22,615 nt of DNA from positions 1 to 22,615 of IMG/VR virus record IMGVR_UViG_3300037847_000772. One strand, 5' to 3'. The DNA is from a virus. Position 1 is the stretch's first letter, and every line of letters begins with the position of its first letter. Below, piece after piece: positions 493-10,752 of this stretch. The notes under the pieces were generated by a model. The model worked only from the letters and a program-made list of their open reading frames with translations. It made no database searches and was not told the DNA's origin. The position numbers were made by a program, and so were the translations under genes.

Positions 493-704
493 TATTTCCT
501 CCATTCATTAAGATGACAATTAGCACAATACCAATATGTGCCATTACCATACACTAAATCATCACCTTTGCATTGACAGCCATTCGGCTGATTTTTTTCT
601 TTATATATAATTTTAGATTGTGGTGTTAATGTGTCAAAGTATGTGCCAACTAGGATTTTAGTTTTGCTCGTTTTTCTTTTTTTTCTTTTAAAACTAGAGT
701 ACAT
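492..704 (-). CDS. small Cys-rich protein with possible zinc ribbon, 70 aa
   Basis: A basic N-terminus (residues 6-16, mostly Lys/Arg) is followed by a C-terminal half with Cys43, Cys45, Cys60, Cys63 and His64. This pair of CxC and CxxCH elements resembles a zinc-binding knuckle. Tyr and Trp lie between them (YGNGTYWYCANCH). The family is not recognised; zinc and nucleic-acid binding are inferred from the Cys spacing and basic tail. The only in-frame ATG (704) lies 55 bp inside the upstream XRE gene and has no clear ribosome-binding site. The true start may therefore be a rarer codon further in, and the N-terminus is uncertain. The stop overlaps the next gene as TAATG. Confidence 0.6.
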   Translation of the reverse strand: MYSSFKRKKRKTSKTKILVGTYFDTLTPQSKIIYKEKNQPNGCQCKGDDLVYGNGTYWYCANCHLNEWRK

Positions 705-898
705 TCAAGTGCATTTGCCCAACAACAAAATAGAAATCCACTTGGTTTCCTTATACCAACTTCCCATTTTGATACTAAACCTCTAGCACAACCAATCATT
801 TCATCAAGTCTTGATTGCGATAATCCTAGTTTTTTTCTCTGTTCTACAAATTGAGGTATAACAGTATCAAAAAATATACCTAGTTCTTTATTTGACAT
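650..898 (-). CDS. XRE/Cro-CI-type helix-turn-helix regulator, 82 aa
   Basis: This is a small DNA-binding protein of the lambda Cro/CI (XRE) type. Residues about 20-50 (RKKLGLSQSRLDEMIGCARGLVSKWEVGIRKP) show the typical pattern: R-x-x-LGLSQ opens helix 1-2, the turn follows at GCARG, the recognition helix is LVSKWE, and the loop is G-x-R-x-P. A short helical, Lys-rich tail follows. At 82 aa it consists of little more than the DNA-binding domain. It sits immediately downstream of the large structured RNA candidate. A TTGACA-like promoter lies just upstream with almost no leader, so translation may be leaderless; no Shine-Dalgarno is seen. It probably regulates the leftward arm or the divergent promoters, but the target is unknown. 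Confidence 0.8.
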   Translation of the reverse strand: MSNKELGIFFDTVIPQFVEQRKKLGLSQSRLDEMIGCARGLVSKWEVGIRKPSGFLFCCWANALECTLVLKEKKEKRAKLKS

Positions 899-903
899 AG
901 TTT

Positions 904-933
904 TTCATATCTGAATATTATTCGGTTTGTCAA
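904..933 (-). promoter_or_regulatory. candidate leftward sigma70 promoter before the XRE gene
   Basis: On the minus strand a perfect TTGACA (plus 928-933) is followed after 18 bases by TATGAA (plus 904-909, 4 of 6 matches to the -10 consensus). Transcription would begin within a base or two of the XRE start codon at 898, giving a leaderless message. The 12-mer AACCGAATAATA lies between the two boxes (916-927) and recurs at 3076-3087, so it may be an operator. Confidence 0.35.
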
Positions 934-939
934 GCTACG

Positions 940-1483
940 CTGGGGAAGTCTTGTATCAGCCCTAAAGGCGTTACCTGTTAAGTATATCAGCCACTTCCCC
1001 AGATTCCATAGAGAAGTAATGGGGTAGTATCATGTTCCATATGCTTTGACCTATTGCCCATTACTCCCTAAAGTAAATAGAGCTACTAATATATACAGGA
1101 TAAAAATCCCAGCGTTTCACAGCTATTTACTTAATTCCTAGAAAGGCACCTGTTTTTTTGTAGACTACTTTCGCCTAATCTAGCAAACCATTGGGGGAAG
1201 TGGATAAACCATTGGTATCTTTTTACAAAGACGTTTCCTATTCAATATATTTGGAAACTCAATCACACTTCCCTAATTCTACTATATACTTTCTTTGTGG
1301 GCAGTATAATACCCCTGATTAGTAGTTTTGTTACCAACAGATAACAAACGCTATCTCAGATTACTAGTTCAGTAGAATGTTCATCTAAACTTTTTTTGTG
1401 GCCGTTTGCAAAACTTCTAAACGGATTCAGTAGCCACTATTACTTCACTTGCAATATATATTTAGCACTAATATTGAAGTAAT
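940..1483 (-). ncRNA. candidate large structured non-coding RNA: eight tandem stem-loops
   Basis: This block has no credible coding sequence and is almost fully accounted for by consecutive inverted repeats. Stems are 940-949/993-1002 (10 bp perfect), 1015-1023/1057-1065 (9), 1071-1080/1123-1132 (10), 1138-1142+1144-1147/1173-1176+1179-1183 (9 with small bulges), 1195-1202/1266-1273 (8), 1276-1283/1371-1378 (8), 1398-1407/1419-1423+1433-1437 (10, interrupted) and 1439-1447/1475-1483 (9). Linkers are only 1-19 nt. Several units contain nested hairpins: 1218-1222/1227-1231, 1233-1238/1253-1258 and 1327-1333/1342-1348. The fifth unit is therefore a three-way-junction shape. Minus strand is favoured: flanking genes are leftward, the 1223-1226 loop reads GUAA (a GNRA tetraloop) on that strand, and the 1096-1110 hairpin gains G-U pairs there. 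One unit (1015-1065) gains pairs on the plus strand, so strand is not certain. It begins five bases after the stop of the 120-aa gene. Confidence 0.7.
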
Positions 1484-1487
1484 TAAT

Positions 1488-1850
1488 TTATACATCACAG
1501 AATATTACATCAAAACCCCAATGGGTTTCTAAGTACCAATCCTGTATATTATCTTTACCAAAGTTATATGATTTTGGTTGACTACCTAATGAATAGGCAA
1601 CACCCCAATCAAATGGGCCTGACTCCCATACAACTTGTATATTATTTGTATTACTGCCAGCCATTTCACTTTCGGTATGTGTAAATTTATTTGGATATGG
1701 TTGAGGTTTTGATACTTCAATATCAGGTTTCATTCCATATGCTTTGCAATGTTTAACTAAACTTTGATACATCATTTCTGCTGCTTCTTTTTTATTAATC
1801 TTTTTAGTATTAAAATCAGGCAGCCATGCTGGTAATAATTGTTCACTCAT
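1488..1850 (-). CDS. hypothetical phage protein, 120 aa
   Basis: The product is unrecognised. An in-frame ATG exists at 1865, but a GGAGG site lies eight bases before the ATG at 1848-1850, so the protein most likely begins MSEQLLPAW. The N-terminal half has a helix rich in Lys and Glu (KKINKKEAAEMMYQSLVKHCKAYG). The C-terminal half is aromatic and Gly-rich (VVWESGPFDWGVAYSLG, DWYLETHWGFDVIFCDV), which suggests a compact beta domain. The start lies 8 bp inside the upstream gene. The stop at 1488-1490 abuts the structured RNA candidate, so one transcript may carry both. Confidence 0.7.
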   Translation of the reverse strand: MSEQLLPAWLPDFNTKKINKKEAAEMMYQSLVKHCKAYGMKPDIEVSKPQPYPNKFTHTESEMAGSNTNNIQVVWESGPFDWGVAYSLGSQPKSYNFGKDNIQDWYLETHWGFDVIFCDV

Positions 1851-2040
1851 TTTTATATCCTCCAAATTCTTTTTTTAGATCTTCTAAATCAAAACCATTA
1901 TCATTTTCAAGTTTAGCAACACGATCTTCTAACAGTTTAATATCTCTCATGTTTTTAATAACTTGATCTGATAGTTTTTTTATAAAACCATTTTGTATAT
2001 CAATCATTTTTTCGTTTAATTCTTGCATTACTTTATCCAT
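1843..2040 (-). CDS. small coiled-coil protein, 65 aa
   Basis: The ATG at 2038-2040 overlaps the upstream stop as TAATG and follows a GGAGG site at seven bases, so the start is secure. The protein is one long charged helix with hydrophobic residues at heptad spacing, particularly residues 20-50 (IKKLSDQVIKNMRDIKLLEDRVAKLEND). A dimeric coiled coil is likely. The family is not recognised and the function is unknown. Many phages carry such short coiled-coil proteins as accessory factors. Confidence 0.7.
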   Translation of the reverse strand: MDKVMQELNEKMIDIQNGFIKKLSDQVIKNMRDIKLLEDRVAKLENDNGFDLEDLKKEFGGYKNE

Positions 2041-9151: not shown

Positions 9152-10752
9152 TGGCATTTATACCAGTAGCAGAAAAAAATATTTCAACAGGATATACTGA
9201 CGGAAAATTTAAAAATTTTTTTAAGAAATATCAAGACGCAGAAACAATCTTTGATCATTGGAAAGATAAGTATGAAGAAGCATACGAATATACAATGCCA
9301 CAAAGAGAATCATTCTATGAAGAAACAGTAGGAGAAAGACGTACTGATAAAATATTTGATGAAACTGCAGTAGTAGGTATTCAAGAATTTGCTAGTAGAT
9401 TACAAGCTGGAATAGTTCCTACTTATGGAAGATGGGCAAACTTTGAAGCTGGATCAGATATACCTGATGATCAAAAACCAGCAGTTAATGAAGCATTAGA
9501 TGAAATAACAAAGTATGTATTTGAAATATTAGCTGGATCTAACTTTAACCAAGAAGTACATGAAGCATTTATGGATTGTGCTATTGGTACTGGTGTAATG
9601 CTAGTAGAAGAAGGTGACGCATTAAATCCAATTAAATTTACAGCTATTCCTTTGCCTAAAGTTATGTTGAACAATGGGCCTGATAACAAAGTAGATACAG
9701 TATTTAGAAAAAGACAGATAGCATATAACCAATTAATGACAGCTTATCCAAAAGCAGAAATGTCTGAAAAGATGATGAAAGCTATTGAGAACAATGAAAC
9801 AAAAAAAGCAAACATAGTTGAGGGTGTTTACAAAATTTATGATGAAGCAAATACAGAAAAATACAAATATTGTGTTGCTTGTATGAATGAAGAAGAAATA
9901 ATTTTTGAAAAAGAATTAGATGGAGTTGGCAGCAATCCTTATATTGTATTTAGATGGAATAAAGGATCAGGAGAAGTATATGGTCGTGGCCCAGTATTTA
10001 ACAGTATGGCTGCAATTAAAACAACTAATCTTACAGTAGAATTAATATTACAAAATGCTCAAATGAATATTAGTGGTATTTATACTTATGAAGATGATGG
10101 TGTATTAAATCCTGATAATATTAATCTAGTGCCTGGCGCTTTAATTCCTGTAGCTCCAAATAGCAGAGGACTTACACCTTTAGCTGGTGCTGGTAGATTT
10201 GATGTAGCTCAATTAATATTATCTGATATGCGTCAGAATATTAAAAAAGCATTATATATGGAAACACTTGGTAGACCAGAAGGTACGCCAATGTCTGCTA
10301 CTGAAGTATCTGAAAGAATGGCAGATTTATCAAGACAAATAGGATCTTCATTTGGTAGATTACAAGCTGAGTTTGTGACACCTCTACTTCGTAGAGTAAT
10401 TAGAATATTGTCTAAACAAGGCAGAATTGAGATACCAAAAATTGATAACAGAGAAGTAACTGTAATATCTCAATCACCATTAGCACAAGCTCAACATCAA
10501 CAAGATGTTGCAGTGGTTAATAATTTTAATGCTATCCTAGCTCAAACATTCGGCCCACAAATCCTTAATATGATTGTAAAACAAGATGAAGTAGCTAGAT
10601 ATTTAGCAGATAAACTAGGTTTACCAGAAAAATTAATTAGAGATCCTCAAGAACAACAAGGATTAATTCAAGAGTTGCAAAACATGGCGCAACAGTCTAA
10701 TATGGCACAAAATGAGTTGGGAATCCCTAGTCAACCGCCACAAGGAGCATAG
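9151..10752 (+). CDS. portal / head-tail connector protein (T7 gp8-like), 533 aa
   Basis: The dodecameric portal forms the DNA channel at one capsid vertex and contacts terminase, scaffold and tail. The sequence matches the T7-type connector family. The N-terminal WKDKYEEAYEYTMPQRESFYEE region is followed by 'GERRTDKIFDETAVVGIQEFASRLQAGIVPTYGRWANF', then 'DCAIGTGVMLVEEG', 'IPLPKVMLNNGPDNKVDTVFRKRQI', 'PYIVFRWNKGSGEVYGRGPV', and the C-terminal 'GRPEGTPMSATEVSERMADLSRQIGSSFGRLQAEFVTPLLRRV'. The length agrees with gp8 (about 535 aa). It is followed, with a 41-bp overlap, by a small Bbp19-like gene and then the scaffold, as in other T7-like phages. Confidence 0.92.
   Translation: MAFIPVAEKNISTGYTDGKFKNFFKKYQDAETIFDHWKDKYEEAYEYTMPQRESFYEETVGERRTDKIFDETAVVGIQEFASRLQAGIVPTYGRWANFEAGSDIPDDQKPAVNEALDEITKYVFEILAGSNFNQEVHEAFMDCAIGTGVMLVEEGDALNPIKFTAIPLPKVMLNNGPDNKVDTVFRKRQIAYNQLMTAYPKAEMSEKMMKAIENNETKKANIVEGVYKIYDEANTEKYKYCVACMNEEEIIFEKELDGVGSNPYIVFRWNKGSGEVYGRGPVFNSMAAIKTTNLTVELILQNAQMNISGIYTYEDDGVLNPDNINLVPGALIPVAPNSRGLTPLAGAGRFDVAQLILSDMRQNIKKALYMETLGRPEGTPMSATEVSERMADLSRQIGSSFGRLQAEFVTPLLRRVIRILSKQGRIEIPKIDNREVTVISQSPLAQAQHQQDVAVVNNFNAILAQTFGPQILNMIVKQDEVARYLADKLGLPEKLIRDPQEQQGLIQELQNMAQQSNMAQNELGIPSQPPQGA

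Follow-up and report, generated by a model that had tools for sequence, protein, structure and literature searches.

Discrete, abundant RNAs that form homo-oligomeric cages are the hallmark of GOLLD and ROOL, and the PeSL elements of T4-type phages are mobile promoter/stem-loop regulatory cassettes located between phage genes. Both GOLLD and ROOL are encoded by phages, measure several hundred nt and adopt an elaborate fold, one conserved large fold, with a variable 5' half in GOLLD (PMC12286853). Phage tRNA arrays with embedded non-coding RNAs have been described, for example in cyanophage S-CREM1 (PMC9964418), and manA RNA (Rfam RF01745) is known from marine phages (Weinberg 2010, PMC2864571).

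The hairpin arrays described here resemble GOLLD and ROOL in being phage-borne, several hundred nt long and elaborately folded. However, they have neither a covariance-model match nor a single conserved large fold, consist of exchangeable separate modules and have no tRNAs nearby. In contrast to PeSLs, they chain many different RNA folds at one place, with no promoter per unit and in a fixed orientation. They share with phage tRNA arrays an intergenic location and a variable series of tandem structured RNA units that includes manA, but no tRNA is present in any examined array, and hairpins are swapped within a constant frame. Like integron gene-cassette arrays, they are composed of ordered, exchangeable units with inverted-repeat ends, whereas here each unit is non-coding and consists of the hairpin itself. 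Phage genomes are known gene mosaics; here, non-coding RNA folds about 30-100 nt long are the units of the mosaic. The novelty is the arrangement, a phage array of exchangeable structured RNAs, and does not rest on a known function. No description of modular arrays of exchangeable structured RNAs in phages or pelagiphages was found in the literature covered, which was partial and had preprints outside it.

Layout and folding of the locus

The locus lies in a 22.6-kb virus record, analysed as one stretch of 22,615 nt (the window), whose TerL and portal are 66% and 58% identical to those of Pelagibacter phage EXVC031P Hodr. The Hodr isolate contains neither the unit D described below nor manA. 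The deposit OQ414635.1 (L012) is titled EXVC031P Hodr and bears locus tags of EXVC032PBaldr, apparently a labelling slip. The minus strand is the coding strand of the genes flanking block 940-1483, and on this strand the array starts directly past the stop codon of a 125-aa gene and has its 3' end near a TTGACA promoter, which is followed by an 82-aa XRE gene. The features, in minus-strand order, are as follows (L numbers denote loci):

1488..1865, minus strand: upstream conserved gene of unassigned function, 125 aa from TTG; an ATG at 1850 gives 120 aa
1440..1482, minus strand: module 1, hairpin TTACTTCA..TGAAGTAA; recurs near the 3' end of the L116 array
1398..1437, minus strand: module 2, hairpin GTGGC..CCAC; relatives of ~70% identity in the L017, L024 and L034 arrays
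1276..1378, minus strand: module 3, unit D, with closing stem, P2 arm and P3; covariance model match at 1272-1384, E 2e-14
1195..1273, minus strand: module 4, slot E, GGGAAGTG..CACTTCCC with nested hairpins, then CCAATGG; relatives in L002 and L116
1138..1183, minus strand: module 5, weak hairpin CTAGA..TCTAG; the sole window unit for which no relative was found
1071..1132, minus strand: module 6, core UAGCUG-GAAA..CUGGG-hairpin-..UAUAUAUUAGUAGCUCUA on an AAGUAAA/UUUACUU stem, located by pattern scan; core shared with relatives
1012..1068, minus strand: module 7, GGGAGTAATGGG..CCCATTACTTC; recurs in L090, and near the 5' end in L116
940..1002, minus strand: module 8, last hairpin CTGGGGAAGT..ACTTCCCCAG, then CGTAGC; recurs in L018
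904..933, minus strand: promoter-like TTGACA-18-TATGAA with palindrome GAATAATATTC, between the array and XRE
650..898, minus strand: XRE-type regulator, 82 aa, HTH_3 (Pfam PF01381, E 3.8e-9); adjoins most arrays

An earlier note, made from the letters of the window, had described a gene-free chain of eight consecutive stem-loop units between a 120-aa hypothetical gene and an XRE regulator. All eight units were located within 940-1483, and the two neighbours are those listed above. The linkers are short, with an upper bound of 19 nt as claimed, but the measured range is 2-19 nt rather than 1-19 nt. Perfect closing stems, reported for most units, are indeed present; the weaker units are 1138-1183, with a closing stem of 5 bp, and 1440-1482, whose 8-bp closing stem is absent from the minimum-energy fold of the isolated unit. 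The UCUUU-GUAA-AAAGA hairpin described for the minus strand lies in unit 1195-1273, and the twice-occurring sequence CCAATGGTTT (AAACCATTGG on the plus strand) was recovered at 1185-1194, whereas its second copy is at 1206-1215, one base off the claimed position. The block contains no ORF of at least 50 aa, the longest in an ATG scan being 24 aa. Hidden coding sequence was considered and rejected, with none in the window and only a 51-aa ORF in two relatives. This ORF (MEWNVNFKLKRKEWDDDSW...) is located within the hairpin arrays of L002 (3516-3671) and L116, like an extra module.

Folding of 920-1495, a check proposed with the original description, was better than that of dinucleotide shuffles (100 per strand) on both strands, with -130.4 kcal/mol on the plus strand (z -2.3, 2/100 shuffles as good) and -147.5 kcal/mol on the minus strand (z -2.7, 0/100 as good). 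Averaged over 72 homologous arrays, z was -3.1 for the gene strand against -2.7 for its complement. Structure prediction shows each unit as a hairpin or a branched fold. The view of the block as a structured non-coding phage locus is upheld, and it falls outside all Rfam families, including GOLLD, ROOL, HEARO and raiA; covariance models of these four found nothing at the gathering threshold in either the window or 19 related loci, and a permissive Rfam scan of 850-1560 returned only chance-level matches to other families. No tRNA gene was detected in the window or in 27 related loci. BLASTN of the window block and the L080, L116 and L113 arrays against INPHARED phages found no convincing homologue, and the 125-aa gene is without a Pfam match.

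With the palindrome GAATAATATTC inside it, the promoter TTGACA-18-TATGAA on the 3' side stops within a few bases of the ATG (window 899-933, minus strand), suggesting that the XRE mRNA is near-leaderless and self-regulated.

Mosaic arrays in related phages

Scanning for the D pattern, the frame of slot E, the core of module 6 and members of the XRE family retrieved more than 100 loci, with many contigs found twice; the comparison set comprises 72 distinct gaps, a few of which are incomplete or hold a single hairpin. These arrays, from marine phages related to Hodr, span 97-844 nt. For ten close relatives of the 125-aa gene, the upstream flank is retained, as in most cases is the downstream one, but the block between the flanks, which measures about 330-600 nt, is built from different hairpins. 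Local folding of the 72 arrays yielded 367 hairpins in 111 clusters, 54 of them recurrent, and modules have been gained, lost, reordered and swapped. Of the eight window units, seven are related to units of other arrays, some of which stand in a different order; for instance, the first window unit lies near the 3' end of the L116 array and the seventh near its 5' end. The order is nevertheless partly constant, with A-B-C before D and D before slot E. No unit is common to all 72 arrays, and the smallest arrays bearing D consist of two hairpins in 163 nt (L016, L028, L035).

Matches between arrays were on the same strand in 4278 cases and inverted in none. Their end points avoid hairpin interiors (343/847 deep in hairpins, against 514 ± 17 expected), and a 54-nt module is identical between phages whose TerL genes share only 69.4% of nucleotides. 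The locus is a minus-strand mosaic array whose modules are separable and are exchanged between diverged phages in one orientation. The exchange may take place via homologous recombination at the short constant junctions AGAACA, UAGGGA, UCCCCCAAUGG and CAGCGUA.

These comparisons bear on the proposal, made in the earlier note, of a single large ornate RNA recalling GOLLD and ROOL. Such an RNA with variable peripheral helices would accommodate the size, the phage setting, the elaborate fold, and the gain and loss of extra domains in a partly constant order. However, it is very unlikely, because some arrays have only two hairpins, no universal core is present, the order changes and exchange end points lie outside hairpin interiors; nor is there an Rfam match.

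Unit D, slot E and manA-like modules

Alignment of homologous loci revealed compensatory changes in the stems of unit D (window 1276-1378). With up to 31 copies aligned, RNAalifold gave a closing stem and two inner helices, whose pairs are 96-97% paired, with double changes in eight of them. The covariation score was 0.189, against 0.074 ± 0.008 for shuffled alignments and at most 0.064 when slid. The closing stem contains an A-U to G-C change, P3 a C-G to G-C change, and one pair of P2 occurs as A-U, C-G and G-C. Unit D is a conserved new motif with compensatory changes. Since the 5' strand of P3 sits in the loop of an invariant GGUA/UGCC helix and is followed by an A-rich stretch, D probably folds with an H-type pseudoknot, pairing GGUA/UGCC together with UAUAC/GUAUA. 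The GGUA/UGCC helix shows no variation in A4, and with the gap moved it reads GCUA/UGGC in L112 and L081. The window copy carries an extra hairpin inserted in the P2 arm.

The covariance model located D once in each of nine large records, at differing neighbours, and a dispersed intergenic repeat of the REP, RUP or ERIC type was rejected on account of this single copy per large record. Tandem D units occur in one array (L112/L117) and, by reading of adjacent pieces, in contig 3300030118_003882. The D pattern is absent from 84,980 bacterial and archaeal genomes.

Unit D is followed by UAGGGA, then by one of 33 distinct hairpins and usually by CCAAUGG. The closing stems of these hairpins are 7-16 bp long and all share GGGA..UCCC, while every Watson-Crick pair occurs at the stem positions beyond it. 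The position after D is a slot that takes many unrelated hairpins closed by GGGA/UCCC. In L129, L183 and L184, identical flank types (SSB upstream, a terminator downstream) enclose three different slot-E modules. The module-6 core likewise occurs on three stems, namely AAGUAAA/UUUACUU in the window and GGGAG/CUCCC and GGGAAG/CUUCCC in relatives, and one of the three occupies slot E. Motif D, this core and the frame of slot E lend themselves to direct searches and tests.

The 3' module (F) of many related arrays matches manA RNA at 33-42 bits in seven records (E to 2e-11), below the Rfam cut-off of 55.2 bits. The alignment of module F is full length (model positions 1-192, E 2.6e-7) and includes the pseudoknot strands and the UGACUGAA..UAAGGU core, and the manA family seems broader than its Rfam model. 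The window's own block contains no significant manA match. Divergent, sub-cut-off manA RNAs are present in small Hodr-related marine phages, at L080:1303-1491, L130:4781-4975, L090:138-332 and elsewhere.

Strand and neighbouring genes

In internal pairs of maintained helices on the gene strand, one-sided changes gave G-U in 26 contexts and A-C in 12 (213 vs 42 by cells), and the counts reverse when the other strand is folded. A broader count over all predicted pairs was uninformative (1905 vs 1859), and the test is weak because the copies are related and the narrower count was a rerun after the broad one. An intrinsic terminator on the gene strand follows the arrays of L129, L183 and L184; no terminator-like site (G+C-rich hairpin and U run) is found within 940-1483. 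Given the G-U excess on the gene strand, the terminators after three arrays and the divergent manA module, the array likely acts as RNA.

A function at the DNA level, as a replication origin or recombination site with strand-specific single-stranded hairpins, is improbable. The proximity of SSB, DnaA_C, ParB-like and XRE genes, the usual occurrence once per genome and the stability of the hairpins on both strands would suit it, but one-sided changes favour G-U on one strand, intrinsic terminators follow the array, a relative of manA RNA is among the modules, and arrays range from two units upward and lack a shared core.

The genes upstream of arrays include DUF3768, DUF932, SSB, the 125-aa gene and a 91-aa gene, and those downstream XRE, DnaA_C, ParB-like and an 88-aa gene, or none on the array strand; the share of XRE is inflated by the search with the XRE family. 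These varied neighbours indicate that the array is not tied to one gene. All arrays lie directly after a stop codon and are co-directional with their neighbours. In SSB-type loci, the array is followed by a small protein carrying the C-terminal DNA-binding domain of DnaA (PF08299; L131:12670-13035).

Possible roles of the arrays

The explanation favoured here is that the arrays encode exchangeable early noncoding RNAs, largely independent of the neighbouring genes. Specifically, the array may be a set of minus-strand modules of non-coding RNA that fold separately, belong to an early operon and mostly act in trans, a reading to which we give a probability of about 0.5. The array sits between two early genes, with the stop codon of the first just ahead of it and the promoter or ribosome site of the second behind it, and would be read at the end of or inside the early operon, presumably together with the early genes. 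Less certainly, its modules would be independent RNA domains that act mostly in trans, for example by binding host or phage proteins during takeover, and D would be the fixed domain beside a variable slot-E hairpin; this would explain both the changing neighbours and the fast diversification of the array. Several points stand against this reading. The array and its neighbours invariably run in one direction, which is also expected of a cis element; folding on the gene strand is only slightly better than on the other strand; the G-U count carries little weight; and the manA matches score under the Rfam cut-off and do not include the window.

The main rival is a cis role, in which the hairpins would be processing or stability sites of an early polycistronic mRNA, for RNase III or RNase E cutting or 3'-end protection. 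Early genes of phage T7 are separated by RNase III sites, and if only hairpin shape mattered, sequences would be free to swap. The invariable position after a stop codon in the direction of the neighbours, the acceptance of hairpins of very different sequence in one slot, and the location of the L129, L183 and L184 arrays at the 3' end of the SSB transcript all agree with this role. However, the conservation of D and the module-6 core goes well past a simple hairpin, taking in unpaired bases and a specific fold, a genome has a single array rather than one per operon, the host gene varies, and relatives contain a manA-like module; we regard the cis role as unlikely overall.

A more elaborate form of the trans-acting RNA reading, offered tentatively, is a combinatorial RNA system in which D would be the fixed domain and the slot-E hairpin the variable part, with further optional modules including the manA-like one. 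Shuffling by recombination would then provide each phage with its own set of trans-acting RNAs, for example against varying host factors or defences. If the arrays are functional RNA sets, these marine phages, relatives of a SAR11 phage, offer a natural library of exchangeable RNA domains numbering in the dozens.

manA RNA between tRNA genes

manA is listed in Rfam as a cis-regulatory class and has long been a riboswitch candidate. Together with the position of most sampled arrays upstream of XRE, this could point to a riboswitch-like regulator of the downstream gene. Such a role is extremely unlikely for the arrays, as the XRE promoter lies between array and XRE, the downstream genes vary, and in three loci none follows on the array strand. 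In the arrays, the manA-like RNA is one module among many, whereas in two cyanophages manA sits directly between tRNA genes, in the order Leu-manA-Asn in S-CREM1 (L157 2133-2503) and Arg-manA-Asn in ACG-2014f (L158 1406-1764), where both tRNAs and manA are unannotated. A location between tRNA genes is more easily reconciled with excision from a longer transcript than with a riboswitch in a 5' UTR, and the occurrence of manA in two settings, RNA arrays and tRNA clusters, suggests a role other than riboswitch. The tRNA region of S-CREM1 (L157:1630-2135; 9629-10134) contains further unannotated structure-prone stretches, and ARAGORN predicts a tRNA-His at L157:1969-2040 that is unlisted in the record.
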